Source: Staphylococcus sp. (lineage in GTDB: Bacteria; Bacteroidota; Bacteroidia; Bacteroidales; Muribaculaceae). From it: DNA of 64,000 bases. The notes beneath the pieces are model-generated. The model was not told where the DNA came from and did no database searches. It was given only the letters and a program-made list of their open reading frames with translations. The stretch lies in the NCBI GenBank assembly GCA_023665865.1, contig JAMPDC010000001.1:2555659-2619658 (forward strand). The letters run 5' to 3'. The position numbers were made by a program, and so were the translations under genes. Within the stretch, counting starts at the first letter, position 1, and each line of letters opens with the position of its first letter. Positions 26,434 through 47,294 of this stretch are shown in pieces.

Positions 26434-26481
26434 AATTCCTATAGTAGAATTTTTTAGTATCGTTGTAATATCGTTCACAAC
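26434..26481 (+). repeat. Degenerate terminal CRISPR repeat
   Basis: The 3' 20 bases (GTTGTAATATCGTTCACAAC) match the repeat with one change. The 5' half is barely recognisable. Its internal box reads TATCGTTG instead of TATCTTTG. It marks the cas-distal, probably oldest end of the array. Confidence 0.85.
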
Positions 26482-27100
26482 TCTGCCTCCTGCATCACAG
26501 CAGCGAGATTGTTGTGAATTGCTTTCATTTTTTGTATCTTTGTAATATCGTTCACAACCAGGAGCCTATCGGGCGATGCGGAAAACTAGTTGTGAATTGC
26601 TTTCATTTTTTGTATCTTTGTAATATCGTTCACAACGCGTCGCCTCGAAGCGGATCCGATCGCCTGTTGTGAATTGCTTTCATTTTTTGTATCTTTGTAA
26701 TATCGTTCACAACAAAGAAGCGGTATAAACTTTACCGGTGTCAGTTGTGAATTGCTTTCATTTTTTGTATCTTTGTAATATCGTTCACAACCATAAAAAG
26801 CGTGAACGTCCAAGCGAACAGTTGTGAATTGCTTTCATTTTTTGTATCTTTGTAATATCGTTCACAACTTTTATCGTTACACAGTAATTTTTCATAAGTT
26901 GTGAATTGCTTTCATTTTTTGTATCTTTGTAATATCGTTCACAACAGTTCACGCAGATAGTCACGGCGCGTCAAGTTGTGAATTGCTTTCATTTTTTGTA
27001 TCTTTGTAATATCGTTCACAACTTTCAACTTTTTTATTAATCATCATATATAGTTGTGAATTGCTTTCATTTTTTGTATCTTTGTAATATCGTTCACAAC
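26434..27100 (+). CRISPR. Type II-C CRISPR array: eight perfect 48-bp repeats, one degenerate repeat, eight spacers
   Basis: Perfect repeats start at 26511, 26589, 26666, 26744, 26821, 26898, 26975 and 27053, each 48 bp, beginning GTTGTGAATTGCTTTC and ending ATATCGTTCACAAC. Spacers are 29 or 30 bp (26482-26510, 26559-26588, 26637-26665, 26714-26743, 26792-26820, 26869-26897, 26946-26974, 27023-27052), all different. The strand is set by the tracrRNA: its anti-repeat pairs with the 5' end of the plus-strand repeat, so crRNAs are read on the plus strand, opposite to the cas genes. Each repeat contains a promoter-like sequence. The repeat length and 5' start match those known for Bacteroidetes type II-C systems. 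Confidence 0.97.
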
Positions 27101-27578: not shown

Positions 27579-28496
27579 TCAATAAGAAATGACAGGATAA
27601 GAAAGACGTCGGCGTTTTCCCTCGAAGCATGCCTGAAGCGATGATGCTGTCCCGGCTATTGCGTTGATCATCGGGCGGACTTTCCCCTCGATGACGGTGT
27701 CGGTTAACGGGAGCGAGAGAAGCTGCCGTTTGATGGTTTTATCGTTGAGTCTCAAATCGGCCGGGTTGTCACTGTCCCTTACGATGTTTACCACAAGCTC
27801 ATCGACGTATGGACGATATGGTTCCATGATGTCGTCGGCAAGACAATATGCATTGTAACGGTTGCAGTGATGCAGCCCGAGTGTAGGCAGGAGTCCGGCT
27901 GCAACGAGCGCACGGGCTGTGAGAGCTCTGACAATGGCATAGCCATAGTTGAGCAGATGGTTGGGCGATTCTCCGTCAGGCCGGCGAAGGAAGCCGGGGA
28001 TTTCCGGAAAGAGATTACGCCAATAGTAGATTGCAGCGCGAGCCTCGAGATTATCGGGATCACCGCTGCGGACAGTCTTGGCCCATACTTCCATATTTCC
28101 GGTCTCGACTTTGCGCAGACGTCGGAGAGCAGCCGCCTGATTCGTGATTTTAGCTTGCACGGTCTGTTGCCAAAGCTGTTTTTTGAGAGGGAGTGAGGCG
28201 GCTATCTGGCGGGTGAAGCGTTCCGTTTGCAGCGTGTTTCCATCGAGTGGGAGATGGAGTCCGACCGGTAGATGGTTGGAGCCGCAAGTGATGACAGCGA
28301 CATTGTTGGCCATTAGCGCTTCGAGGAGTAGGGTGGTGATGGTGATTCGACTATTGTCTAAAACTACCACGCCGGTATCCTCGATTGGTATAGTCACAGG
28401 GGGTGTTTCAGATTCATCAGGACGACGCATGCAGATTTGCGAATACGCAAGCGAAAGATGTGCCGGAGAGGAAAAGGAGAGAACGGATTTTATCAT
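27579..28496 (-). CDS. cas1: CRISPR-associated integrase Cas1 (type II)
   Basis: 305 residues from the ATG at 28496. A longer in-frame start at 28538 is less likely, because family members begin at the equivalent of MIKSVLSFSSPAHLSLAYSQ. Conserved features: an N-terminal beta domain ending in VVLDNSRITIT; the active-site Glu in ARAAIYYWRNLFPE; the His in LGLHHCNRYNAY; and the acidic LADDIMEPYRPYVDELV. It integrates new spacers with Cas2. It sits between cas9 and cas2 with 76 bp to cas9. No csn2 or cas4 is present, which defines subtype II-C. Confidence 0.95.
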   Translation of the reverse strand: MIKSVLSFSSPAHLSLAYSQICMRRPDESETPPVTIPIEDTGVVVLDNSRITITTLLLEALMANNVAVITCGSNHLPVGLHLPLDGNTLQTERFTRQIAASLPLKKQLWQQTVQAKITNQAAALRRLRKVETGNMEVWAKTVRSGDPDNLEARAAIYYWRNLFPEIPGFLRRPDGESPNHLLNYGYAIVRALTARALVAAGLLPTLGLHHCNRYNAYCLADDIMEPYRPYVDELVVNIVRDSDNPADLRLNDKTIKRQLLSLPLTDTVIEGKVRPMINAIAGTASSLQACFEGKRRRLSYPVISY

Positions 28497-28572
28497 CTTG
28501 AGGAGAGGAATTAGTCGGAGGGTGGCATGACTTGACACAGCACCCTCCGAGGATAAATGAATTGAAGAGTTA

Positions 28573-31500
28573 TTAATATTCTCCGACTTGGACTATGCGC
28601 CCCGTGGAGTCAATGCGCACTTTGACGGCTTCTTTCATGAGATCAATAGACTGTATTCGTTTCCATGTGACATCACGCAATTCTTTTGGTTCATCTACAG
28701 TAGTCTCAAGATGATGACGGAAGACATAATTTTTAGTTGCGAGTTTCTGTACACGGAAAAGGTTGGGGCTGATAAGAGTATAGTTCGCCGGATCGAGGAG
28801 GTCGATTTCATTCGGGTCAAAGGTCTTGACAGGAATTCCATCGGCTGAAGTCTCATAGCGCGGGAAGACGAGATATTCATTTCGTTTGAGAGTCATGAAG
28901 AACTTCCAACCTTTCTCGCTGCCATAATTACGGTCTATAATCGGCAGTCCGCTAATGGCGCGTGCGGTTGCCTCAAAATATGATATGATAGTTTCCTCCA
29001 TTTTCCCTTGCGTATTCAGGAAGAGAGCGACATGATGGTTTCCGGAAGTCTGCACATAGTCTGTCGGAACCGGATTGCCTTCAGAATCTGTGATGGGATT
29101 TCCGAAATGGTCATGGGCCGAACGTAGAGCGACAACATTCAGTGGTCCGCGAATAGCCACACGTTTTATCGTGATACCTTTCTCCTCGTTGAGATAGATG
29201 GGGTTGGCGTCAAGGTTTGAGAAAGCGTCCTTGGCATTTCCTTCAAATTCAGCAAGTCGCGCTTCGAGAATACGCTGGATACCTTTATCTATAACCTTAT
29301 CTATTTTAAGGGATGGAGATATAGGTGTCCGAGAAGTATAGACCGGTTCCTTATCGACGAGTTTGACTTTTTCAGGGACTTTGGAGAGTTGTATGGGGTC
29401 GAGATAGATGGGATTTTTCGCAAGAGAATTTTTGCCGGTAAAAGCTTTCTTGGGATTGCCGTCAAACTCATCGAGACGACGCTTGAGAGCTTCGCGGACA
29501 GATTTGGACGCAACTCGGGCTATCGTAGCGGCATCCATCTTGCCGTCGATCTTTACTTCGGATGTGACGTAGCGTAGGGAGCGACCGTAGATAGTGTCGT
29601 TATGTAACTGTACACGAGGAGCGAGACATCTGGTCGTTTTCGTGCCTTCGGCGCAACGGGTGCGGTTACGGCTCGTGGTGACAACTGTGTTTTTGGCCTT
29701 GGTTGAGATAAGTATCCCTTCAAGACATTTCTTGGCTTCGGCACGGAACTGTCCGTACGGCATAGGAGGAATGAACCGGAGGTTTCCGTTGGCATCGCGC
29801 GCAAGGTATTTCTTTTCTATACCATAAATCGCACCGTTGCGGTCGCTGCGTGCGGCGAGATTGTTGAGATATTGTATATAGGCCGGGCGTGTGAAGACGA
29901 TGGTGAGTGCATCCATGGCGTGGTGACGGTTATCGTTGCGCTTGGACCAGCCTTCGATTGTGCCGATGACTTTGCCGTCGCGTGTAGTGCGTGACGATGT
30001 CATCCCCGCGCGGTTATATTTATCCCAGTTGAGTTCTTTCATTATGTCAACGAGCCCCCAGTCTTCGCGGAGACGGGCTGTGACGGCTCCATTTGTCGTA
30101 GTGACGCGGTCGGTCACCTGACTGAGAATCTCTGTAGCTTTCCTGGCTATATATTGAGTATTTGTGAGGTCACGGTTGAGGAAGTCGGTCGGGATATCTT
30201 CGCGTCGGCAGAGCAGATTGCGTGCTTTTGCCTTTGAAATCTTGCCGGTCTTGAGGAGATCGTTGACACGGGCGGTATATTGAGCGACTCCATTGGCGCC
30301 ATCTGTTTCCTCGACGTAGTCAATCGCCGTCTTATTGCCCTTGGCAAGGTTGGCCTCGCGTGTTTCGAGAGTCTTGTTGGAATAAGAGTCGTCGAAGAGG
30401 GTGGCTTGCGGAATGATATGCTCGATATTGAAGTCGTTTGAAAAGAGACGTTCTTTTTTAACGAATGTGGAGGAGTAGAGCGTCTTGTAACCATTGCTCG
30501 CCAGTTCCTCATAAAGACGGTATCTGACGATGTCAGTTTGGCTTGGTTTTGAGATGAAGAATGGCGCACCTGCAAGGATATCGGTGATGCGCTTATTGTC
30601 TTTGGTGCGCGTTGCGATATGTTCTGACATTTTCTGGCGCTCTTTGGATGACTTTTTAAGCTCGCGCGCCATTTCAATACGTATCTCGTCAGGTCGGCCG
30701 AAGCGTTGGATGAGGGTGTTGACCACGTTGATGATTTGGTTGAGAATCTTTTCGACAACCGGATTGCGCAGAGAGTTTTTTTCAAGTTGGTCGAGATGGT
30801 CAGTGGAGATTCCGGCGTTATACGCAGAGTGGTTGTAACCGGCGGCAGCTGCAGCATCGCTATACTGCATACCATCGCGCATGTGTGGGAGGAGACGGCG
30901 CATCGCTTTTGCGCTGAGATCAGCATAGTCTGAGTCAAAGACAATAGAGATGAATGGGCGGACAGTCATCTCGTCGAACCCGAAGATCCGGCAGAGGGAT
31001 TTTTCAAGTTTATATGTACCCGTGCGCGAGTCATCGTCCTCCGCTGAATAGAGAAGGTGCCAGAGATGGTAGGCGGGTTGCATTTCGAACTCGTTGCCTT
31101 TGAGATCGGCGTCAAAGAAAAGAATATCAGGATTAATACCCGACATCTTGAGCACTTCACTGACAGCTTTTGCACGTTGCAGACCGTTCAGACCTTTAAG
31201 GACGTCAAGCGAATGACCTGACATTTCAAAGATCTTTTCAGCAGCTTCCAGAAACAGACTCATGGTGTGGTTGCCATTGATTTCCTTGAAGTTCAGACTG
31301 TGACCTTTGCTCTTCGGATAGAGCATGGAGAGGATTTCCTTGTCGGTCATTTTCTCGGAATACTCGAGGTTCTCTGCAAGGAGGAGCTTCTGTTCTTGAG
31401 TAAGCGGAGTGCCATCGATACGCATGTCATTGAGCCGTTGCCACATGCGGAACTGCTGGAAGACCGGCGAGGAGAGAGGCGCGACCTTGGAGCCAACCAA

Positions 31501-32688
31501 ACGGCGTGAGGTGTGGCCGTTGATAGTGACATCAACCATTTTTGATGCCAGTTGGCAGACTGACACTTTGGATTTCTGAGATTTGAGCGGACGCTGATAG
31601 AAAATCGTATGTTCCTTGATCTCTTTTTTGAGCTCAGGAGTCAGTTCTGGATGAAATTTGGACTGGGTTTCCCAGATTGTCTCGAATTCATCCTCATAAT
31701 CCTTGCGGAAGAAGGCCTGATTTCGGAACGAATGGTGAGGATTGTCAGAAAGAATACGCCATTTGTATTGCCCGATGGTCTCGCCTGACATAACAAGCTC
31801 TTTGCTTCGTTCGCTCATATCGCTGAGCAATCCACTCGACGATGAGATGGCACCATTGAGCTTGGACAGGACAACTCCAAGTTGCTCGCCGTCGAGCTGC
31901 GAATCAAGGCCTTTGACACGCCATTGACATTCTTCTATCTTTTTTGCATTGTCGCGGGCAGAAGCGCGTTTGAGCCCTTGTAAGTTCAAGTGTGAAGCCA
32001 GAATAGCCCAAGTCTTGCTTTCATTTTTCCCTGCGAGCTGCGCCTGTATATCGGCAGGGAGTGAGGGATGGAATTTCATCTGAGTGGCAAGAATCTTGTC
32101 GAACTCTTCCTGAAGGTCAGACTTGTAATACTGCGGCATTTTCTTCTGCCCGCTCTCATAAAGTTCCAGGCTATATTGTCCCGGAGTGAGTCCACGGGAC
32201 TTTAGTGTTTTGGCGAGATCGATTGCATCAAAACTTTGACCTTCCTCCGGATTTGAGATTTTGCGGCTGCTTCTGTAGCCACGCTTTTTATTCAGCATGA
32301 GCAGGACGAGAGCGAGCTCTTTAAGGCTGATTTCCTCAGATGCAGCTTTGGCTCGAAGAGCATAGGAGGTATGGGTGCAGCGCGATCCTGCTTCAATCAA
32401 TGAGGAATTGCTGTCTAACCAACCTGCGTTTTTGAAAATCTGAATAAGATTCTTCCTGCGTAGGATGAAGCGTTGGAGTCTTCGGCGCATTCCTCGGTTT
32501 ATGCGCCTGCCAGTATTGACCGAACAACTTTTCCCAAGAGAAAAATCGTTGATTATGGAGGTGGATATATTATAGGTACGCGCGCCTGCGCCAAGAATTT
32601 TTGCCGGTTCAGTAAAGTCAACTGATTCAAGGATTGCAGCCCAACCGGTGCTGGCAACACCTGCATCAAGGCCAAAAACGAGTCTCAT
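28573..32688 (-). CDS. cas9: CRISPR-associated endonuclease Cas9, type II-C, large form
   Basis: 1371 residues, within the large Bacteroidetes II-C class (about 1350-1450) rather than the 1000-1100 of Neisseria-type II-C. Nuclease residues are intact: RuvC-I GLDAGVASTGWA with Asp8; an arginine-rich bridge helix (RRINRGMRRRLQRFILRRKN, residues about 61-80); RuvC-II IRIEMARE with Glu672; HNH NIEHIIPQ with His757 followed by N and K of the HNH fold; RuvC-III NRHHAMDA with His922, His923 and Asp926. The C-terminal wedge/PAM-interacting part carries two related segments starting at Arg1071 and Arg1144. It cleaves crRNA-matched DNA with the tracrRNA encoded just upstream, and has its own consensus promoter. 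Confidence 0.97.
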   Translation of the reverse strand: MRLVFGLDAGVASTGWAAILESVDFTEPAKILGAGARTYNISTSIINDFSLGKSCSVNTGRRINRGMRRRLQRFILRRKNLIQIFKNAGWLDSNSSLIEAGSRCTHTSYALRAKAASEEISLKELALVLLMLNKKRGYRSSRKISNPEEGQSFDAIDLAKTLKSRGLTPGQYSLELYESGQKKMPQYYKSDLQEEFDKILATQMKFHPSLPADIQAQLAGKNESKTWAILASHLNLQGLKRASARDNAKKIEECQWRVKGLDSQLDGEQLGVVLSKLNGAISSSSGLLSDMSERSKELVMSGETIGQYKWRILSDNPHHSFRNQAFFRKDYEDEFETIWETQSKFHPELTPELKKEIKEHTIFYQRPLKSQKSKVSVCQLASKMVDVTINGHTSRRLVGSKVAPLSSPVFQQFRMWQRLNDMRIDGTPLTQEQKLLLAENLEYSEKMTDKEILSMLYPKSKGHSLNFKEINGNHTMSLFLEAAEKIFEMSGHSLDVLKGLNGLQRAKAVSEVLKMSGINPDILFFDADLKGNEFEMQPAYHLWHLLYSAEDDDSRTGTYKLEKSLCRIFGFDEMTVRPFISIVFDSDYADLSAKAMRRLLPHMRDGMQYSDAAAAAGYNHSAYNAGISTDHLDQLEKNSLRNPVVEKILNQIINVVNTLIQRFGRPDEIRIEMARELKKSSKERQKMSEHIATRTKDNKRITDILAGAPFFISKPSQTDIVRYRLYEELASNGYKTLYSSTFVKKERLFSNDFNIEHIIPQATLFDDSYSNKTLETREANLAKGNKTAIDYVEETDGANGVAQYTARVNDLLKTGKISKAKARNLLCRREDIPTDFLNRDLTNTQYIARKATEILSQVTDRVTTTNGAVTARLREDWGLVDIMKELNWDKYNRAGMTSSRTTRDGKVIGTIEGWSKRNDNRHHAMDALTIVFTRPAYIQYLNNLAARSDRNGAIYGIEKKYLARDANGNLRFIPPMPYGQFRAEAKKCLEGILISTKAKNTVVTTSRNRTRCAEGTKTTRCLAPRVQLHNDTIYGRSLRYVTSEVKIDGKMDAATIARVASKSVREALKRRLDEFDGNPKKAFTGKNSLAKNPIYLDPIQLSKVPEKVKLVDKEPVYTSRTPISPSLKIDKVIDKGIQRILEARLAEFEGNAKDAFSNLDANPIYLNEEKGITIKRVAIRGPLNVVALRSAHDHFGNPITDSEGNPVPTDYVQTSGNHHVALFLNTQGKMEETIISYFEATARAISGLPIIDRNYGSEKGWKFFMTLKRNEYLVFPRYETSADGIPVKTFDPNEIDLLDPANYTLISPNLFRVQKLATKNYVFRHHLETTVDEPKELRDVTWKRIQSIDLMKEAVKVRIDSTGRIVQVGEY

Positions 32689-38400: not shown

Positions 38401-39123
38401 ATGATAGAAGTAATCCCAGCTATTGACCTGATTGACGGAAAATGTGTCCGTCTGAGCCAAGGAGACTATTCCCGTTGTACGGACTACAGCGCTTCGCCTG
38501 TCGACATGGCCAAAATGTTTCTGGACAATGGGCTCACACGTCTTCACCTCGTCGATCTTGACGGAGCCAAGGCCAGTGCTCCGCGCAATCTACACACTCT
38601 CGAACAGATAGCCCGTCTTAATGGAGTCGGGATAGAGTGGGGAGGAGGCATCAAGACAGAGCAGGCTCTGAAAGATGTCTTCAATGCCGGTGGTACTTAT
38701 GCGATCATTGGTAGTGTGGCTTCGCGTCAGCCGGATCTGCTGACGCAGTGGCTTGATTCGTTCGGTGGTGAGTGTCTGATTCTGGGCGCGGATGTGCGCG
38801 ATGGGAAAGTGGCCGTGAGCGGTTGGCTTGAAGAAACAGCTGACACCATTGATGATCTCATCCGCCTTTTCCAACCCCACGGATTGACTCAGGCTATCTG
38901 CACGGATATCTCCAAAGACGGGATGCTTGAGGGGCCGTCGTTTGATATGTACACTCGTCTCGACCGTGAGTTTCCGGAAGTGATATTTACCGTCTCAGGT
39001 GGTATCAGCTCAATAGATGATATTGTGCGTCTCGATAATCTTGGCCTTAAGAGAGTGATTACCGGCAAGGCTATTTACGAAAACCGGATTTCTCTGCGTG
39101 AACTCAGGCAGTTTGTCGGATGA
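38401..39123 (+). CDS. hisA: Phosphoribosylformimino-5-aminoimidazole carboxamide ribotide isomerase
   Basis: 240-residue TIM barrel. The first strand IPAIDLIDGKCVRLSQGDY carries the catalytic Asp of HisA (HisF would differ here). Phosphate-binding segments are GGGIKT and VSGGISS, and the second catalytic Asp lies in CTDISKDGML. This is the last gene of the his cluster: the strand changes after it, and hisF and hisIE do not follow. Confidence 0.95.
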   Translation: MIEVIPAIDLIDGKCVRLSQGDYSRCTDYSASPVDMAKMFLDNGLTRLHLVDLDGAKASAPRNLHTLEQIARLNGVGIEWGGGIKTEQALKDVFNAGGTYAIIGSVASRQPDLLTQWLDSFGGECLILGADVRDGKVAVSGWLEETADTIDDLIRLFQPHGLTQAICTDISKDGMLEGPSFDMYTRLDREFPEVIFTVSGGISSIDDIVRLDNLGLKRVITGKAIYENRISLRELRQFVG

Positions 39124-39128
39124 AAAAA

Positions 39129-39167
39129 ACACTCCGGACTATCTTCCAAGAAGATGATCCGGAGTGT
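39129..39167. terminator. Terminator hairpin between hisA and the GLPGLI operon
   Basis: ACACTCCGGA (39129-39138) pairs with TCCGGAGTGT (39158-39167), with inner ATCTTC/GAAGAT. A T-run follows on the minus strand, so it best serves the minus-strand GLPGLI operon and may also block hisA read-through. Confidence 0.8.
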
Positions 39168-39202
39168 CAACATTGATACACCAATAATATCAAGGAGTTG
39201 TT

Positions 39203-40063
39203 CTATTTCTTGTTTTTGTCATAGTCACACTCGATGGCCCAGCGTGAGGTATATTTCGGGCCCTCCAGATGTTGAGCATTTGTGATTTGGATCGTATTCC
39301 CATATTTAGCCTGAAGCATCTGCATCTTGTTGTTTTCATAATGTTCATCCTCGGCCAAGGCTTTCAAGCGAGAGGTCGAATCGTAGTCAGCCGGACTATA
39401 GATTGGCTTCATGATTTTATCGCTTTTTTCAAGTCCGGTCGCTTCGAAGGAGAAACCACCATTGGCTTCAGCCCGCAATATAAGTCCGGGGAGACCGTGG
39501 AGCTTCCAGGGGCCGAAAGGCAGGGATAATTCCGGTGAGAACCATGCTTTCCATTGGCGACCGTGATAGTCACTTTGAGCCATCACACATTCATAGCCGA
39601 GGATGGTGGCGGTGGAATCGCCGACGATTTCCCAGGTTTGTTCAGAGATTGGTTCGGAGTAGGTCATCAGTTCATCTGCAAACTCGTCGTAGACTTCCAC
39701 TGTCTGCTTTGGCAGATCGGTGAAAATATAGGTATATGCAATCTTCTCCGGGGCATTTCCTTTGGATTTGTCAACTGTTATTCCACTCCCGGTTATGGTT
39801 ACCCATGCTGCCATCTGGATGTCCTTAAGCTTTTTCTTACCTTCAGGAGTTGAGGTCAGGGAATCGCAATATTCGCTCATCTCGTTGAAATATTTGCTCT
39901 TCTGTTGATTGCACAGTAGCGTCATGGTCTGATTCTTTCCCTTCACAGAGTCATGCTGTGTGGGGTAGTGGTAACTGTAGCTGACTCTGATGTCCGCTTT
40001 TTCCTGTGCGATGGCTGCGACAGCCATAAGACACATGATTAGTATTACTGAGGCTCGGTTCAT
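39203..40063 (-). CDS. GLPGLI family protein (paralogue 6, operon-distal)
   Basis: 286 residues with a signal peptide (MNRASVILIMCLMAVAAIAQ). The family motif GLPGLI is at residues 190-195, preceded by GPWKLH and, about 30 residues earlier, by ILGYECVMAQSDYHGRQWKAWFSPELSLP, the best-conserved block of these paralogues. GLPGLI (TIGR01200) proteins are secreted or periplasmic Bacteroidetes proteins of unknown function. The C-terminus (ECDYDKNKK) departs from the FLETDYHE ending of its neighbours. Last gene of the operon, before the terminator. Confidence 0.85.
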   Translation of the reverse strand: MNRASVILIMCLMAVAAIAQEKADIRVSYSYHYPTQHDSVKGKNQTMTLLCNQQKSKYFNEMSEYCDSLTSTPEGKKKLKDIQMAAWVTITGSGITVDKSKGNAPEKIAYTYIFTDLPKQTVEVYDEFADELMTYSEPISEQTWEIVGDSTATILGYECVMAQSDYHGRQWKAWFSPELSLPFGPWKLHGLPGLILRAEANGGFSFEATGLEKSDKIMKPIYSPADYDSTSRLKALAEDEHYENNKMQMLQAKYGNTIQITNAQHLEGPKYTSRWAIECDYDKNKK

Positions 40064-40084
40064 TTTATAGGTTTATTAATAAAT

Positions 40085-40897
40085 TTATTTATAATCTGTT
40101 TCAAGGAAATCAAGGTCTGTCTTGAGTTCAAGAGATTTGAGTTGCGAGGGGTAGAGATTTTTGGCAGAGGTCTGCGCTGTGATGATCGCACCCATATTTT
40201 CGGCGAAGAAGCGCTTGTGTTTAAGCAATTCTTTCCTCTCGAGTTTCTCATATAGTTCCTCTTCGTAGACGGGCGGCACTTCTTCATTTCCGGTCTCAAG
40301 GCCTGTGGCTGAAAAGCTATATTGCCCTGTGCTCTCTGAGGCTTCCATTATCAATCCGGGTAAGCCCTCCAGTTTCCAGGGGCCGTCATTGACGGGGATT
40401 TCCGGTGTGAACCAGACGGTCCATTGCCGTCCGTGGTAATCAGCAGTTGCCATTACACACTCATAGTCGAGTATGTTTTTGGTTGAATCTGTGATGACCC
40501 ATTCGATTTGAGAGAGAGGCTCCTCGTAGTAAAATCTCTCGGAGGCAATCGTGTCGTAGCGTTTGAGACTATTGTTTTTCCGGTCCTTATAGACATACAT
40601 CTTCTCCCAGCGGGTAGGTATTTTACCAATATCATCTGATGTAAAGGACTTTGGCTTGCTTGCAAGGTACTCGGCACGACCTTCAGGAGTGGAATTGAGA
40701 GAGTCGATCCAATTAGTCATGGGATTGTAGAATTTAGAGCAGTCCTTGTCGGCGATCAATATCATCGGACGGTCCACTTCATAGCCTCTGACCGTGAAAT
40801 AATGGTAAGCATAGGAGACTTTGATGATTGTTTTCTCCTGAGCGAATATAGCAATCGTCAGAAGGCAGGCAGTTAGGGTTGTTATTATTCTGTTCAT
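40085..40897 (-). CDS. GLPGLI family protein (paralogue 5)
   Basis: 270 residues with a signal peptide (MNRIITTLTACLLTIAIFAQ). GLPGLI motif at residues 178-183; conserved ILDYECVMATADYHGRQWTVWFTPEIPV block before it; C-terminus DFLETDYK. It follows the beta-barrel gene after a 125-bp gap and precedes paralogue 6 by 21 bp. The mature N-terminus (TIIKVSYAYHY) is shared with paralogue 6 (DIRVSYSYHY) and suggests the same beta-strand opening in all copies. Function unknown. Confidence 0.85.
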   Translation of the reverse strand: MNRIITTLTACLLTIAIFAQEKTIIKVSYAYHYFTVRGYEVDRPMILIADKDCSKFYNPMTNWIDSLNSTPEGRAEYLASKPKSFTSDDIGKIPTRWEKMYVYKDRKNNSLKRYDTIASERFYYEEPLSQIEWVITDSTKNILDYECVMATADYHGRQWTVWFTPEIPVNDGPWKLEGLPGLIMEASESTGQYSFSATGLETGNEEVPPVYEEELYEKLERKELLKHKRFFAENMGAIITAQTSAKNLYPSQLKSLELKTDLDFLETDYK

Positions 40898-41022
40898 ACT
40901 CTATATTTCATTTAGGCATTTGACGGTTAAAACAATCACTATGCCAGTTGATGACATTGTTGTGTGCATGAAATCGCTCTCGTTATAATCATGCCATCCT
41001 ATGCGAATGGTATGACGGTCGG

Positions 41023-43611
41023 TCATTTGCGGAGGGAGATGGTGACCAACAGTTCGCGTCCGCGGAGCCAGCGTTGCGACTCGAAGGAGTAGAGGTCGCT
41101 GTAGGTGGTGTAGTTATACATGCGTTGGTTGAATATGTTGTTGAGGCTACCGGAAAGCTCCAGACGTTTGCTGAGCTTGTAGACCAGTTTGGTGTCGAGG
41201 AGAAACATGTTTTTATATGTTCCCGCTGTCAGTTCGTTGCGGTAATGTTCCCCCATGATTCGCCACTCCCACTTTTTATGAGGTATGAAGTTGAGGAGCA
41301 GGGAGTTTTCCATGCTGCTAAGCCAGGAGTTCTTGTTGCCGTTCATTTTCAGACGGTTATTGCCGAAACTGAAGCCATAGTCAAAGCTCAACCAGCGGAT
41401 GGGAGCACCGTTGAGTTTGACTCCGACACCCCACGAAGTGGTGACGGAGTTGACCGCCTTATTCTCTGACAGGAGGTGGGATCCGTTGCGGCTGAACGAT
41501 CCGTTGATGTTGGCACTGCCGCGAATGAAGTCGAGTGTCTTGCCGAGATTTCCGCTTGTGATGAACATCTTTCTGTCACTCTTGGCTGTAGAGTAGGAAT
41601 AGACTATGTAGTCGCCATAGAGCTGCTGACTCATGGTGTAAGGTAGGTGAGACCATGATTGCATGATTGACGCATTGGCAAAAACTCCGCGGCGAGTATG
41701 CTTATAGGAAAATGAGGCCGACAGACTTTGGCTTGTGGAGGTGTAGAAATCATCCACTCCCTGACGAAACGAACGGTAGTTTGTCATGATATAGCCCGGC
41801 TGGATCATGTTGAGATTCATCGGCGCGCGTCCTGTACGACCACGTAGATTGAGTGAGATACGGTTGTTGGGTTTCCAGTTCATGCTCAACGACGGGGAGA
41901 AGTAGACCTCAGAGCGGTTGGCAAGTTCCTTGTCAAAAGTGTAGTGTGCGAAACTCAGGGGTGTGCTGAGGGTGAAATTGACACGTTTGAACCAATATTC
42001 GAATTTCGGCGTGGCGTAGACAGTGAAATAGTTAGTGTTGATTGTATTTTCAAAATCATCGAAGGGAAGTGTGGCTATGTCGCCTGTCCACGACAGATCG
42101 GTATTCATCGAGCGTAGATAGCCTTTGATCCCGCCTTCGAGACTGACGGTCACGCCGTTGAGCGAGAAGGCATAGGCTGCGCTCTCGTGAGTGTAGAAGG
42201 CGTGGTCGCCTACATGTTGCCGCAGTTTGTTGGCATCCATCGACACATTGAGAGTCTGTGGTAGCGATTCCCATTCGTTTGAACTCTGGAAGGTCACAAG
42301 ATGCTTGCCTTTGAATCTTTTTATCATCTTGAACTTGTTGGCGACATAATAGTCAGGCAGGGATGCAGATTGGTCGTTTGGCAATGAACCGGTAACACCG
42401 AGGCTCACGTCGTCCCAGTCGATATTGGTTTGGAGAGTGTTGTTGATAAAGGTGGTTTTTCGGTTGACTTCATAGATGAACTTACCCGACAATGAGTGGG
42501 CGCGGTCGCGGCCATCGCGGTTCTCGGTGATGACACGGTCGCCGCCTTCCAGAAAATAGGTGGTGATATTGGCGGCCTGCGATGTCACCCGGTTGAACGA
42601 ATAGTCGATCTGTGCCTTGAACTCCCCGTTCTTCAGTTTCCACAAACTGTTTGTTGTCACAAGAGCTGAGCGGTTAAACAGCGTACGTTTCGAACTCAGC
42701 GACGGTACGCCGGGAAGCGACAGACTGATGTAACGGCTGAGACCTGTCTCGCGGCGTGACGCAAAGAAGTCGGTGAGGAGGTTGCCGAGATTCTGACCGG
42801 TGTTGTTGCCTTTGAAAGTGGTGATATTCTGAAACCCGGGCATAACGGCCATTGCAAACAGTTCTCCGTTCCACAAAGCACCTTCAGGCTGCCATGAATA
42901 GCCTCCGCCTGCTTCACCGTGGAATGACCATGTGGCTTTGGCCTTGTTTTTGAGCTTGAGATTGATGGCTGCCTTGTCGGAGAAACTGATGCCTGAGAGC
43001 ACTTGCATTGGCTGATGGTTTTCCATCACCTCTACCGCGCCTACATCCTCATGGTTGATACCGTTGGTAGCTATGCCATATCTGCCTCCGAGCAGATCTG
43101 AGCCTTCTATATAGAACTTGTTGATATCCTCGCCCTGATATTTGATCTGGCCGGTTTGAGACACATCTATTCCGGGCATGCGTTTTAGCACGTCGCCTAT
43201 GCTGCGGTCTTGGGCTTGGGCAAAACTGCCGACGTGATAGCTGATAGTGTCGCCTTGTTCACGGATGCGGTCTGCCTTGACTGCGACCTCTTTCAAAACT
43301 GTTGTGGCAGGCTCCATAACTATCGTCACAGGAAGCTTCACACTGTCGAGTTTGACAGTGTGTTTGGCATAACTCATCATCGAGACGTTGAGTGTGTAGC
43401 CTTTGATTTCAGGCGACGTGATTGAAAACTTACCGTTGATATCTGCCGTAGCATATTTCTTTATCTTGCCCTCGGCATTGCGCAGGATGATTGATGCACC
43501 TGTCAGTGGTTCGTTTGTGCCTTGTTCGACCACGGTTCCCGAAACATTGATCTGCGCCATGCTGCCAAGCGCGGTCAACAGAAATGTGAATATGATAAGG
43601 ATACGGTTCAT
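41023..43611 (-). CDS. Outer-membrane beta-barrel protein with carboxypeptidase-regulatory-like and plug domains
   Basis: 862 residues. Signal peptide (MNRILIIFTFLLTALGSMAQ); a CarboxypepD_reg-like domain (about 20-105, INVSGTVVEQGTNEPLTGASI); a TonB-receptor-type plug (about 110-215, GDVLKRMPGIDVSQTGQIKYQG and FYIEGSDLLGGRYG); then a long beta-barrel ending in aromatic-rich strands (RWLRGRELLVTISLRK). This is the architecture of small TonB-dependent or TonB-receptor-like proteins of Bacteroidetes, and no SusD-like lipoprotein accompanies it. Instead it is embedded among six GLPGLI genes, so those may be its periplasmic or surface partners (inference). Confidence 0.85.
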   Translation of the reverse strand: MNRILIIFTFLLTALGSMAQINVSGTVVEQGTNEPLTGASIILRNAEGKIKKYATADINGKFSITSPEIKGYTLNVSMMSYAKHTVKLDSVKLPVTIVMEPATTVLKEVAVKADRIREQGDTISYHVGSFAQAQDRSIGDVLKRMPGIDVSQTGQIKYQGEDINKFYIEGSDLLGGRYGIATNGINHEDVGAVEVMENHQPMQVLSGISFSDKAAINLKLKNKAKATWSFHGEAGGGYSWQPEGALWNGELFAMAVMPGFQNITTFKGNNTGQNLGNLLTDFFASRRETGLSRYISLSLPGVPSLSSKRTLFNRSALVTTNSLWKLKNGEFKAQIDYSFNRVTSQAANITTYFLEGGDRVITENRDGRDRAHSLSGKFIYEVNRKTTFINNTLQTNIDWDDVSLGVTGSLPNDQSASLPDYYVANKFKMIKRFKGKHLVTFQSSNEWESLPQTLNVSMDANKLRQHVGDHAFYTHESAAYAFSLNGVTVSLEGGIKGYLRSMNTDLSWTGDIATLPFDDFENTINTNYFTVYATPKFEYWFKRVNFTLSTPLSFAHYTFDKELANRSEVYFSPSLSMNWKPNNRISLNLRGRTGRAPMNLNMIQPGYIMTNYRSFRQGVDDFYTSTSQSLSASFSYKHTRRGVFANASIMQSWSHLPYTMSQQLYGDYIVYSYSTAKSDRKMFITSGNLGKTLDFIRGSANINGSFSRNGSHLLSENKAVNSVTTSWGVGVKLNGAPIRWLSFDYGFSFGNNRLKMNGNKNSWLSSMENSLLLNFIPHKKWEWRIMGEHYRNELTAGTYKNMFLLDTKLVYKLSKRLELSGSLNNIFNQRMYNYTTYSDLYSFESQRWLRGRELLVTISLRK

Positions 43612-43651
43612 AAGTCGTGGATATAGTCAGTTTATATACTCAGTCGTAGTT

Positions 43652-44509
43652 TCATTCGTGATAGTCTGTTTCCAAATAGTCGTCGGTGCCCTTATAGTCA
43701 GCGTTGACGCTTACTTTGCCATTGGTCATCGCATTGATCATGGCCGAACGGTTACGGCGGCTGTAGTCTTTCATCTTCAGATATGACTTTCTTTTCGTCT
43801 TGAATATCTTATCAGTGTCGATCAGCACTGGCTTGAAAGGCTCATTGCATTGCTGGAGGCCTGTGATGACAAATCCATAATCTCCGTCCTCAGTGTCGGC
43901 TTTCATGATCAGACCCGGCAGACCGCAGAGTTGCCACGGGCCGTCACGTAGGGGGACATCTGTGGCAAACCATGCCTTCCATTTGCGTCCGTGATAACCG
44001 GCAGTGGCGAGGTTACACTCATAGCCGAGGATTGTCGTGGTTGAATCTCCTATCTCCCATTGCAGATCGTTCATGTCGACCTCATATTGATACTTATCGC
44101 CGCCGCTGCTATCCCATACGGTGATAGTGTTGCCATGGAAATCCTTTTGGTTTTTATATCTGCTCTCGGCCATAAGTCCTTGTTTGCGCATGATATCAAA
44201 GGCGTTGCCTGCTCCGGTTTTCATTGATTCTTCAAACGCGGCCGTAAAAGCCTTATCGCGGACAGCTTTGCCGTTGGGATCATTATCAAGAGAATCGACA
44301 AAGAAAGTCTGCGGATCATAGAAATATGAAGCTCCCTCGCCGATCTGAAGGATATACTTATGTTCTGACATGAACTCCTGGCTCCTGTCGTTGTTATGGC
44401 TACGCGTCCATGCGGTGTATTGGGCCTTAAAAGTGGCCATCGGCCTCTCATCTGCATATATTCCGGATATGGCCAGCAATACTATTGATATGCAAATCAG
44501 TCGTTTCAT
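43652..44509 (-). CDS. GLPGLI family protein (paralogue 4)
   Basis: 285 residues, signal peptide (MKRLICISIVLLAISGIYA). GLPGLI at residues 196-201, preceded by ILGYECNLATAGYHGRKWKAWFATDVPL, and a C-terminus ending YLETDYHE. The start codon lies 3 bp after the tail of a deleted paralogue. It is 40 bp upstream of the beta-barrel gene. Divergence within the central region (DNDPNGKAVRDK, KTGAGNAFDIM) suggests separate specificity from the other copies, which is inference. Confidence 0.85.
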   Translation of the reverse strand: MKRLICISIVLLAISGIYADERPMATFKAQYTAWTRSHNNDRSQEFMSEHKYILQIGEGASYFYDPQTFFVDSLDNDPNGKAVRDKAFTAAFEESMKTGAGNAFDIMRKQGLMAESRYKNQKDFHGNTITVWDSSGGDKYQYEVDMNDLQWEIGDSTTTILGYECNLATAGYHGRKWKAWFATDVPLRDGPWQLCGLPGLIMKADTEDGDYGFVITGLQQCNEPFKPVLIDTDKIFKTKRKSYLKMKDYSRRNRSAMINAMTNGKVSVNADYKGTDDYLETDYHE

Positions 44510-44512
44510 TAC

Positions 44513-44601
44513 TTATTCGTGGTAATCGGTTTCAAGAAAATCTATTTTGGCTTCCTCTACAGTCCTGAGAATGTGATTAATATGATAAGGATGCGGTTCA
44601 T
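44513..44601 (-). pseudogene. Deletion scar of a GLPGLI-operon gene
   Basis: Read on the minus strand, a start ATG at 44601 overlaps the stop of the upstream gene (ATGA) and opens MNRILIILITFSGL before a stop. Two bases out of frame, the last 16 codons of a GLPGLI gene follow (VEEAKIDFLETDYHE, stop at 44513). The tail is nearly identical at DNA level to the end of the paralogue stopping at 45448. The head resembles the start of the beta-barrel gene. The middle of a gene has been deleted, leaving 89 bp. Confidence 0.8.
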
Positions 44602-45443
44602 AGGTCGTGTGGGTAGTCGGTTTCTTCTCTGTCGTAGTTTACTATGCGTTTTTGGTTTGTCGGTGCGGGTCCGAAACCGTGGGCCGCACGTATTTTGGCT
44701 CCGGAATCGGAGTTTTTGTAGCGCCACCAGTTGTTGAAAAATTTATCATGCGTCACTTTGTTGACACCACTATTGTCATCGTATGCCATATATCCAACCC
44801 GGGCCGTAGGATTTTGTATGATACCTGTCGGGGTGAATGAATAGTCGCGGTTCGCGTCATAAGCCTCAAGAATCACGCCCGGTAGACCGCACAGTTTCCA
44901 CGGGCCGTCCTGAATCGGGATTTCAGGTGTGAACCATGCCGTCCAACGACGTCCTCGGTAGTTGGTGACTGCCTCAACACATTCATAGCCTAAGATAGTC
45001 CTCGTGCTGTCGCCGATTTCCCACTGCGGTTTTTCCCAGTCCTCTTCGTAACGCCAGTTTTCCATATCAAAATAGCTTGTCTCTGTCACTTTTCCCTCCG
45101 GATAGTTTTTGTAGATATAGTCCCAGTAATACCCTCCGAGGATTTCACTACTTTGAGGGTCTTTCTCAAATCGTATGCGGTCCATTTCAAAGAACATAGC
45201 CGGATCAACGGTCATGAGAGAGTCACGCCACAGACGTTGGGTGCCGCAGAATAGAGATTTGTTCTTTCCAATGCGGAGCATCGCAGGGTCTTTCCGCTTG
45301 CGGATATCGCGTTTTGTTGTATCGGTTACAATATGGCGCATATAATGCACTTCGAGGATTGTCGGTTCGCCATCCTTGATATAGTCCTCTGCGAAGCAGC
45401 TTGCGCTCCAGAGCAGACACAATGCGTATATCAGTCGTTTCAT
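44598..45443 (-). CDS. GLPGLI family protein (paralogue 3, GLPGVI variant)
   Basis: 281 residues from the ATG at 45443 (MKRLIYALCLLWSASCFA signal peptide). A longer in-frame start at 45470 overlaps the previous gene and is rejected. The motif reads GLPGVI at residues 186-191, preceded by ILGYECVEAVTNYRGRRWTAWFTPEIPI. The C-terminus is REETDYPHDL. The most divergent of the six in its C-terminal third. Its stop overlaps the start of the deleted gene by ATGA. Confidence 0.85.
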   Translation of the reverse strand: MKRLIYALCLLWSASCFAEDYIKDGEPTILEVHYMRHIVTDTTKRDIRKRKDPAMLRIGKNKSLFCGTQRLWRDSLMTVDPAMFFEMDRIRFEKDPQSSEILGGYYWDYIYKNYPEGKVTETSYFDMENWRYEEDWEKPQWEIGDSTRTILGYECVEAVTNYRGRRWTAWFTPEIPIQDGPWKLCGLPGVILEAYDANRDYSFTPTGIIQNPTARVGYMAYDDNSGVNKVTHDKFFNNWWRYKNSDSGAKIRAAHGFGPAPTNQKRIVNYDREETDYPHDL

Positions 45444-45447
45444 AATC

Positions 45448-46308
45448 TTATTCGTGGTAATCGGTTTCAAGAAAATCTATTTTGGCTTCCTCTTCAGTCT
45501 TGATATGGTCTGTCCCGAAAGCAAAGCCGGTGGTAGCCGCGTCTATTGCGCGGCCATGGTTACTGTAGTTATACTGCTGCCGGAGCATGTTGATTCTTGT
45601 CATCTTGTCGTATTGCCGGAAAGGGTAGACCGGTACCATCTCCTTATCTGAGGCCTCCAGTCCATTGGCGATAAAGCTGTGTTGACCTGTCGATTCCGTA
45701 GCTTCGAGAATAAGCCCCGGGAGTCCAGACAGTTTCCACGGGCCATCCTGCAAGGGGATGTCGGGTGTGAACCAAGCCGTCCAGTGGCGTCCATGGTAAT
45801 CTGTCGTAGCCATGACACATTCATAGCCGAGGATGGTCTTTGTTGAGTCGCTTATCTGCCATTGGATTTCTCCAAGTGGCTCGGTGTATGTCCCGAATTC
45901 AAGTGAACCGCTTCTGTCATAGACCTCCATTTTATTCTCCGGTTTGGAGCTGAAAACGTAGAGGAAGGTATGATACACCACTGCATCCATCGCTCCCATG
46001 TCCTTTGACGCGGTATATTTGTCAATCGCAGCACTCAACATCTGAGAGCTTAGCGCTCTCCCCTGAGGCGTGGACTGGAGTGAGTCTTTAAATTCGGTAT
46101 GGGCATTGTAGAATTTCGATTGCTGCTTGTTTGCCAACAGGACAAAGGGTATCTCTTTCTTCACTATCCCGTCTGACCCGCGTACGAATGTCTCATGATA
46201 GGTGTAGCCTACCTTTATCTCTGCAAGCGGATAGTCTTTCTTCTTCGCCGATAGGGTAAATGTGGCTGAAAGGGCTAAGAGTAATACTAATATTGATTGA
46301 GGTTTCAT
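45448..46308 (-). CDS. GLPGLI family protein (paralogue 2)
   Basis: 286 residues from the ATG at 46308 (MKPQSILVLLLALSATFTLSA signal peptide). The 13 codons upstream in frame overlap the previous gene and lack signal-peptide character. GLPGLI at residues 195-200, with ILGYECVMATTDYHGRHWTAWFTPDIPL before it. Ends IDFLETDYHE. Only 4 bp separate its stop from the next ATG. The 3' 38 bp recur almost identically in the deletion scar at 44521-44558. Confidence 0.87.
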   Translation of the reverse strand: MKPQSILVLLLALSATFTLSAKKKDYPLAEIKVGYTYHETFVRGSDGIVKKEIPFVLLANKQQSKFYNAHTEFKDSLQSTPQGRALSSQMLSAAIDKYTASKDMGAMDAVVYHTFLYVFSSKPENKMEVYDRSGSLEFGTYTEPLGEIQWQISDSTKTILGYECVMATTDYHGRHWTAWFTPDIPLQDGPWKLSGLPGLILEATESTGQHSFIANGLEASDKEMVPVYPFRQYDKMTRINMLRQQYNYSNHGRAIDAATTGFAFGTDHIKTEEEAKIDFLETDYHE

Positions 46309-46312
46309 GATC

Positions 46313-47191
46313 TTATTCGTGATAGTCGGTTTCAAGAAAATCAACATGGAGGTCGGGAGCGGAAGTTGAATCGGCGGTTTTTAGCTCAATCTTTTCGCCG
46401 CTCGGTGTGTTGCTGAGAAAAGTTTGTATCATCGTATCTCCGTTTGTGAGATAGCTTCGAGTGGCGCGCAGCATATCTCTACGGTTCATCTGATCATATT
46501 TTTTCGGACTATAGATAGGGGCTATCTCTTGATTGCTCGCTTCGATTCCTATGACGGCAAACCGATGTTGCCCTGTGCTTTCGTCTGCTTCGAGTATCAA
46601 TCCCGGTAGTCCGTACAATTTCCATGGGCCATCCCGAAGCGGTATATCGGGAGTAAACCACACTGTCCAGTGACGTCCATGGTAATCAGTCTCGGCCATT
46701 ACACACTCATATCCGAGGATGGTTTTGGTTGAATCGCCAATTTCCCATTTCATTTCGGCGAGAGGTTCAGAATAGTAGCCCCTTTCCAGCATACCTGCAC
46801 TGTCATATACCGTGACAATAGAGTCTCCGGTAGACTTAAAGACATACATGTAGCCATTCATTGTCGGGATCGAACTGCTGTCTTTGGTCTCGAGCGCTTT
46901 CTTGACTCCCTCGTCCATCAACCGGTTGAAAACAGCTTTTCCACTCGGGGTGGATTCAAGCGAATCAATGTACTCTGAACGGGGACTGAAGAACTTTGAA
47001 TACCCACTGTTGGCAAGTAGCACCATCGGGTATTCGGTCTCATAGGCTTTCGCGTCGGTCTTCAGGTGGAGATGGGGGTAAAAATACGTGACTTTTATCT
47101 CGGCGCGGGGATTTGGAGCCTTTTTCTTTGCCGACATGCTCAGGGCTGCAAAGGCTATCAGAAAGGTCGTGAGGAGGATGAGACGTTTCAT
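46313..47191 (-). CDS. GLPGLI family protein (paralogue 1, promoter-proximal)
   Basis: 292 residues from the ATG at 47191 (MKRLILLTTFLIAFAALSMSA signal peptide). The upstream in-frame start at 47293 would include the promoter and is rejected. GLPGLI at residues 194-199, preceded by ILGYECVMAETDYHGRHWTVWFTPDIPL. Ends VDFLETDYHE, as in paralogues 2 and 4. First gene of the operon, with a consensus promoter about 70 bp upstream. It is closest to paralogue 2 (shared SAKKK mature N-terminus and YSPKKYDQMNR/YPFRQYDKMTR region). Confidence 0.87.
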   Translation of the reverse strand: MKRLILLTTFLIAFAALSMSAKKKAPNPRAEIKVTYFYPHLHLKTDAKAYETEYPMVLLANSGYSKFFSPRSEYIDSLESTPSGKAVFNRLMDEGVKKALETKDSSSIPTMNGYMYVFKSTGDSIVTVYDSAGMLERGYYSEPLAEMKWEIGDSTKTILGYECVMAETDYHGRHWTVWFTPDIPLRDGPWKLYGLPGLILEADESTGQHRFAVIGIEASNQEIAPIYSPKKYDQMNRRDMLRATRSYLTNGDTMIQTFLSNTPSGEKIELKTADSTSAPDLHVDFLETDYHE

Positions 47192-47262
47192 ATTGTGAAA
47201 ATGTGACGGGTTATTAAACGTGATAAAATTGGAATCCATTGACGGAAGAGAGTTTTCAGTCG

Positions 47263-47294
47263 CAAAGCTAATGAAATAGTTTTTAACCTGCAAA
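47263..47294 (-). promoter_or_regulatory. Consensus promoter of the GLPGLI operon
   Basis: On the minus strand: TTTG (complement of 47291-47294), exactly 20 bp, TAGCTTTG (complement of 47263-47270). The predicted leader is about 65 nt. No second consensus promoter was found inside the cluster. Confidence 0.8.

Follow-up and report, generated by a model that had tools for sequence, protein, structure and literature searches.

A Muribaculaceae operon of six GLPGLI paralogues around one TonB-dependent-transporter-like barrel and its possible role in handling small exported peptides

Genes of the GLPGLI family recur beside genes for one family of outer membrane barrels and, in relatives of the genome studied here, directly behind genes for small two-cysteine peptides. 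These linkages were identified from a window of 64,000 nucleotides (nt) of a genome that GTDB places in the Muribaculaceae (GCA_023665865.1, contig JAMPDC010000001.1, positions 2,555,659 to 2,619,658 of the forward strand; positions below are those of this window), which includes an operon of four GLPGLI genes, a barrel gene, and two further GLPGLI genes (Table 1). We assign a probability of roughly 0.4 to the reading that such operons mediate a TonB-dependent handling of small exported peptides, in which GLPGLI proteins would serve as periplasmic, ligand-specific half-barrel partners of the barrel. A preliminary description of the window had assigned all six small proteins to the GLPGLI family, and all six indeed score 141.6 to 169.7 bits against TIGR01200 (cut-off, 50 bits); five of them also pass the cut-off of PF09697 (Porph_ging). 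The same genome contains 17 GLPGLI genes, and members over the cut-off were detected in 21 of the 60 genomes of a sample of the class.

Linkage of GLPGLI genes to a barrel family

Co-occurrence of GLPGLI with the barrel family, on which the preliminary description had staked its proposal in advance, was found in the genome itself, in its relatives, and in the class sample. All five full-length barrel-family members of the genome are located within 300 base pairs (bp) of a GLPGLI gene, whereas not one of the 27 remaining TonB-transporter-like places has a GLPGLI gene within 5 kilobases (kb) (Fisher test, 5e-6); the comparison places were collected with two Pfam models (plug and regulatory-like), which miss barrels like the one of 732 amino acids (aa) beside the GLPGLI pair of locus L001. 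Across 15 relatives and the genome itself, whose five barrels are part of the count, 21 of 25 barrel places (E value of 1e-40) lie within 3 kb of a GLPGLI gene, and of the four exceptions, two are partial matches and two match longer proteins at 140 bits. Four of nine same-genus genomes lack GLPGLI, and the same four lack a full-length barrel match; another genome of the genus (G009) has one GLPGLI gene and no listed barrel, and the stretch fetched from it (L097) is likewise without a barrel. In the class sample, from which the genome itself was excluded, 15 of the 16 barrel places found are within 3 kb of a GLPGLI gene; with 15 candidates scored per genome, these barrel counts are lower bounds. 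Inspection of the class-set stretches added six genomes in which a barrel adjoins GLPGLI (L090, L091, L092, L094, L095, and L096), and no barrel was seen beside GLPGLI in stretches L089 and L093, or directly beside any of the eight GLPGLI genes in seven stretches of genome G035.

We also fetched 77 loci; their selection is not random, since it was made by resemblance to the proteins of the window. Among these, 76 contain a GLPGLI match and 49 a barrel, which in 47 cases is directly adjacent to GLPGLI on the same strand. The number of GLPGLI copies per barrel locus, which the preliminary description had proposed to count, ranged from one to six. In our judgement, it is very likely that GLPGLI and barrel proteins work together. 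The converse association is weaker, with a listed barrel at 19 of 29 GLPGLI clusters in the relatives set and at 15 of 35 in the class set, and the many clusters without one would fit a chance neighborhood of genes with no joint function; however, the linkage persists across families of the class despite changes in gene order and copy number, which makes mere hitch-hiking highly improbable. A different outer-membrane-like protein of approximately 710 to 730 aa, without the regulatory-like domain, adjoins GLPGLI in L001 (4234-8122) and L026 (50-3092), and thus other barrels may have GLPGLI partners too.

Predicted folds and sequence conservation

The 862-residue barrel protein carries the proposed carboxypeptidase-regulatory-like domain (CarbopepD_reg_2, 48.8 bits; cut-off, 32.2). 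Its proposed plug domain is below threshold at the sequence level (PF07715, 16.8 versus 23.9 bits) but is present as a fold in the structure model, and a family member at position 2354275 in the same genome passes the Plug cut-off (24.6 bits). The model (predicted local distance difference test score [pLDDT], 87.9) forms a large barrel with a plug, its top PDB matches are TonB-dependent transporters, and the nearest solved structures are importers. A conserved LKEV.VK segment precedes the plug; we take it to resemble a TonB box, which makes an interaction with TonB a prediction. As previously described, SusD is absent, with no SusD-family match in Pfam or NCBIfam among the seven genes.

The model of the GLPGLI protein encoded by gene 2 (pLDDT, 93.9) is a half-barrel and corresponds in fold to the "bowl" domain of PNGase F-II. 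It also matches LolA and RseB, more weakly than the bowl domain, and has a half-barrel fold of the LolA type; VioE and ependymin-related folds score like LolA. A GLPGLI profile compared with PDB sequences retrieved three chains of bowl domains and, weakly, two unrelated ones, and the LolA family was not among the Pfam or NCBIfam matches of the window GLPGLI proteins. The likeness to LolA-type carriers of acylated lipoproteins is one of predicted fold. The available part of the PNGase F-II report (PMC9522356) states that the role of the bowl domain is unknown, that its removal left activity unchanged, and that its structure is unique. In that enzyme the domain (PF22252; 4r4z and 7zgn) is fused to a glycanase, whereas the GLPGLI half-barrel stands alone.

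The paralogues had been described as diverging in the middle, which needs correction. Among 90 GLPGLI proteins, residues 151 to 200 form the constant part (mean entropy, 1.31 bits), and the six other regions computed are variable (2.63 to 3.02 bits), except for a C-terminal E-x-D-Y that is conserved despite its variable surroundings (E, 97%; D, 77%; Y, 90%). The idea of diversified regions itself holds in that there is one constant segment and a variable remainder. Residues W150, C164, G173-R174, G189-P190-W191, GLPG, and E281 are 97 to 100% conserved; two of the six window proteins have no cysteine other than Cys164 (99%). In a set of 36 proteins representing four position types, 63% of the GPWK..GLPGLI loop (182-200) is universal, and type-specific positions are densest in strands 63-67 (40%), 116-144 (34%), and 201-219 (37%). 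The constant segment (GYEC..A, GR.W, and GPWK..GLPGLI) may represent a common working face, with the remainder conferring ligand specificity.

The GLPGLI proteins would be periplasmic. By eye, no lipobox is present in the signal peptides of the window proteins, and those of GLPGLI genes 5 and 6 and of the barrel end in A followed by Q. Gln after the signal peptidase I site is a feature of Bacteroidetes, according to the accessible part of PMC5837995.

Position-specific paralogue types and a recombination scar

In a phylogenetic tree of GLPGLI proteins encoded in barrel loci (95 sequences), at least five of the six window paralogues belong to old, position-specific types common to several species. 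The genes starting at 46313 and 45448 share a starred clade of 12 rows, 11 from upstream and 1 from downstream of a barrel; the gene at 44598 falls in a starred clade of eight, all upstream of barrels; the gene at 43652 belongs to a starred clade of six, each being the nearest GLPGLI upstream of its own barrel; and the gene at 39203 is in a starred clade of 10, of which 9 are downstream of barrels. Orthologues in nine other loci are 48 to 72% identical, compared with 31 to 51% for paralogues within the operon and 67 to 81% for the barrels. The earlier proposal of several GLPGLI partners for one barrel is consistent with the linkage, but a freely diversifying array is not what these old shared types indicate.

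The gap between genes 3 and 4 contains two relics. The first (44579-44609; 31 nt, 93.5% identity) derives from the start of a barrel gene and overlaps the end of gene 3; the second (44512-44564; 53 nt) stems from the terminal part of a type-a GLPGLI gene and is 98% identical to the end of gene 2. Operons of relatives have the order a-b-barrel (L005 and L013) or a-d-barrel (L016 and L024). Because of this 88-bp scar and these two orders, the simplest history suggested by the sequences is that the window operon may be a fusion of two operons, in which one barrel was lost and both GLPGLI sets were kept. The record containing L024 is titled Lachnospiraceae and holds a GLPGLI operon of the Muribaculaceae type; it is perhaps mislabeled or a mixed metagenome bin.

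Two-cysteine mini-proteins encoded upstream of GLPGLI genes

In exporter-type loci, small double-glycine peptides with two cysteines are encoded directly before GLPGLI genes. In L052, this peptide-GLPGLI unit occurs twice in tandem as near-identical pairs, and similar peptides also stand before GLPGLI in L053 and L076, two loci in which neither a C39 nor a VKOR protein was detected. Clustering of small open reading frames (ORFs) yielded a second, Sec-type peptide family, in which a signal peptide is followed by CG....TVD...F..E.EAE.FY.EL...LC; the member of the genome itself (L003 8195-8410) lies in another of its GLPGLI clusters. Under an explicit rule, an upstream peptide precedes 12 of 182 GLPGLI genes versus 6 of 765 other genes, and the P value (1e-5) is descriptive only because the rule was written post hoc, after the examples.

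Profile searches provided independent tests, although several seeds of the second profile came from the search with the first and several new matches are close to seeds. Apart from the seed contributed by the genome itself, a four-member profile run over 61 genomes found seven places (E value of ≤1.1e-5) in five genomes; each of them immediately precedes GLPGLI, which neither of two further, weak places does. A nine-member profile (A9) matched 26 places among 198 genomes of the family. All 15 confident ones (E value of ≤1.3e-4; 4 seeds and 11 new, with L123 counted as upstream from its match position) immediately precede a GLPGLI gene of the same strand, and none of the 11 weak ones (E values of 0.002 to 0.01) is near GLPGLI in the returned stretches; any match occurred in 24 and a confident match in 15 of the 198 genomes. 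Over 198 genomes of the class, A9 gave three matches, namely, two seeds and a weak one away from GLPGLI. A six-member double-glycine profile (A6) gave only two matches in 198 genomes of the order; L102 is just upstream of GLPGLI, after a 429-aa ORF (a barrel fragment by eye), and L103 is unrelated. No scanned peptide passes a curated cut-off (Pfam, 7 Sec-type and 7 double-glycine peptides; NCBIfam, 6 and 10, respectively). Exported-looking proteins of 123 to 137 aa and proteins of about 240 to 310 aa recur just upstream of the two-cysteine peptide (L105, L107, L109, L114, L115, L118, and L121), and two small and one large of these matched no Pfam or NCBIfam family over the cut-off. The C39 exporters of some loci are followed by proteins of 56 to 67 aa (L051 9500, L067 9455, and L072 9618) that by eye consist of little beyond a membrane anchor and look like the first part of the longer, adaptor-like proteins that L047 and L071 encode.

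In the reading that we prefer, the barrel would be a TonB-dependent transporter moving a peptide across the outer membrane, and GLPGLI, exported via its signal peptide and with a half-barrel fold resembling those of the PNGase F-II bowl and LolA/RseB, would hold that peptide in the periplasm and in some loci perhaps report it to a neighboring two-component system. The most likely ligands would be exported peptides of small size, for example the two-cysteine mini-proteins, and the paralogues may represent different specificities collected on one barrel. The window operon weighs against this reading in having no peptide gene (the small ORFs within 900 bp are three unconvincing ones), and for this reason an extension of the peptide link to it is one that we infer from its relatives. 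Likewise, contacts of GLPGLI with barrel or peptide, and the direction of transport, are proposed here as parts of the model. We slightly prefer capture and sensing over export or immunity because the barrel is importer-like, the operon lacks an inner membrane importer, proteins like RseB act as sensors, and genes of two-component systems are repeatedly found beside some clusters.

Export would instead make the barrel a TonB-dependent exporter, for which Oar of Myxococcus is a precedent, and GLPGLI a LolA-like chaperone that passes periplasmic peptides to it. The peptides bear Sec-type signals or double-glycine leaders, the hand-over proteins LolA and LolB have folds like that of GLPGLI, and the peptide may stay in the periplasm in L051, L067, and L072, since their C39 exporters are followed by a mere membrane anchor protein; however, the adaptor-like proteins of L047 and L071 are longer (230 and 162 aa, respectively, by eye), the window operon carries no cargo gene, and the importer-like barrel also argues against export, which we regard as unlikely. 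Immunity is another explanation that we find improbable. The peptides would be bacteriocin-like, the barrel their entry receptor, and each GLPGLI a protein neutralizing one of them in the periplasm, so that the window would hold orphan immunity genes. The position of GLPGLI directly after the peptide gene, including the tandem pairs in L052, is as expected for immunity genes, some leaders have sub-threshold matches to models of bacteriocins or ribosomally synthesized and post-translationally modified peptides (RiPPs), arrays without a peptide exist, and the operon fusion seemingly retained both GLPGLI sets. Against this, pairs of a barrel and a single GLPGLI occur in widely separated families with no convincing peptide in the inspected stretches, as in housekeeping transport; the peptides are acidic by eye; and no killing activity is known.

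LolA-like folds hold acyl chains, and GLPGLI could accordingly carry a hydrophobic or iron-containing ligand in ordinary nutrient, lipid, or heme uptake, the peptides being later additions. In the available parts of PMC8757827 and PMC3764172, two GLPGLI genes of Porphyromonas gingivalis respond to the hemin acquisition regulator PG0720 (HaeR). Nevertheless, the operon contains no inner membrane importer or enzyme, and confident Sec-type peptide matches in the family occur only beside GLPGLI, which leaves simple uptake with a rather small probability.

Organization of the operon and neighboring genes

The seven minus-strand genes are intact, as described, and are separated in gene order by 4, 4, 88, 40, 125, and 21 bp. 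The reported promoter and strong terminator were recovered as an exact match to TTTG-N20-TAGCTTTG, which we take to be the Bacteroides promoter consensus and which occurs eight times in the window (0.59 expected), and as a stem found by its folding energy, which a simple scan did not list. Judged from these signals, a single transcript covering all seven genes is plausible. Elsewhere in the window, a Cas9-like gene (28573-32688; RuvC_III and HNH_4), Cas1 (27579-28538), and a CRISPR-like repeat array (26449-27100) were observed.

Table 1. Features of the GLPGLI-barrel operon. GLPGLI lengths assume an ATG near the signal peptide; longer starts are among the ORFs of three of the six.
Feature	Position	Strand	Details
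Promoter-like element TTTG-N20-TAGCTTTG	47263..47294	-	Exact pattern match, upstream of gene 1
GLPGLI gene 1 (type a)	46313..47191	-	292 aa; TIGR01200, 150.2 bits; signal peptide by eye
GLPGLI gene 2 (type a)	45448..46308	-	286 aa; TIGR01200, 154.8 bits; used for structure model
GLPGLI gene 3 (type b)	44598..45443	-	281 aa; TIGR01200, 169.7 bits
Gap with putative recombination scar	44510..44597	-	88 bp; nucleotide match to barrel start and gene 2 end
GLPGLI gene 4 (type d)	43652..44509	-	285 aa; TIGR01200, 145 bits
TonB-dependent-transporter-like barrel with carboxypeptidase-regulatory-like N-terminal domain	41023..43611	-	862 aa; Pfam and model
GLPGLI gene 5 (named c)	40085..40897	-	270 aa; TIGR01200, 166.1 bits; outside resolved tree clades
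GLPGLI gene 6 (type e)	39203..40063	-	286 aa; TIGR01200, 141.6 bits
Intrinsic terminator region	39120..39180	-	Stem ~39128-39168, -26.7 kcal/mol, z -5.7, then T (U) run

Neighboring genes were counted over the 77 fetched loci, four loci of the genome itself, and the window. Of these, 11 loci contain a histidine kinase cluster (divergent and immediately upstream in 9) and 9 a response regulator cluster (divergent at the second place in 7); in L093, L095, and L101, GLPGLI likewise has a kinase-regulator pair at its flank (by eye; the L095 kinase by Pfam). The kinases are not one family, since the sensor part of the L004 kinase is found in only five loci. The four regulators scanned are similar to RprY, but an assignment to it was rejected because they score 154.8 to 231.2 bits against a cut-off of 370. 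BlaI/M56 pairs are located at the flanks of five loci, and a Pfam scan detected no TonB domain in five M56 neighbors. C39 peptide exporters occur in five loci, radical SAM proteins in two, and C39/VKOR-type proteins in five (L043, L047, L048, L052, and L056; VKOR domain in two of three scanned). These last proteins may connect disulfide formation with the two-cysteine peptides and with the near-invariant cysteine of GLPGLI. Near GLPGLI genes of L004, L006, L007, L014, L024, and L099, several of which belong to the type-a clade of the window, lies a gene for a lipoprotein-like protein of about 150 aa; that of L099 has a sub-threshold Lipocalin_4 match.

Relation to known systems and significance

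Several known systems share features with these operons. LolA/LolB and RseB-MucB gave no sequence match to GLPGLI in the Pfam, NCBIfam, and PDB profile searches, and GLPGLI differs in its six copies in one operon and its link to a TonB-type barrel. The partners in SusCD and in BtuB-BtuG and XusA-XusB of Bacteroides are surface lipoproteins, in contrast to GLPGLI with its half-barrel fold and no lipobox by eye. Double-glycine bacteriocin and RiPP loci of Bacteroidota share peptides, C39, and VKOR-type proteins with some GLPGLI loci but none of these with the window operon. In YfiM-Griddle lipocone loci, a LolA-like protein is encoded beside an outer membrane barrel, as here, but lipid-acting enzymes are included, of which the window operon has none (available part of PMC12419801). 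Five of the 50 direct targets in the PhoP regulon of Riemerella anatipestifer are GLPGLI genes, as far as the accessible part of that source goes. The literature searched, with most subscription journals outside its coverage, contained no description of the barrel link, fold, or peptides of GLPGLI.

It is possible, though doubtful, that GLPGLI proteins, barrels, and two-cysteine mini-proteins constitute an undescribed system of peptide communication or antagonism in the Bacteroidia. In such a system, a cell would export a disulfide mini-protein, a dedicated TonB-dependent barrel would take it over the outer membrane, and a repertoire of half-barrel GLPGLI receptors would recognize self and foreign versions, with operons growing as receptor sets are fused onto one barrel. 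GLPGLI is common in the Bacteroidia, yet no fold, partner, or function surfaced in our searches. Three things are new for the family. Its predicted fold is shared with the PNGase F-II bowl and, at a greater distance, with carriers of lipoproteins and a periplasmic sensor of stress; it has a barrel partner found again in several families of the class; and some of its members are marked by a very small exported peptide.
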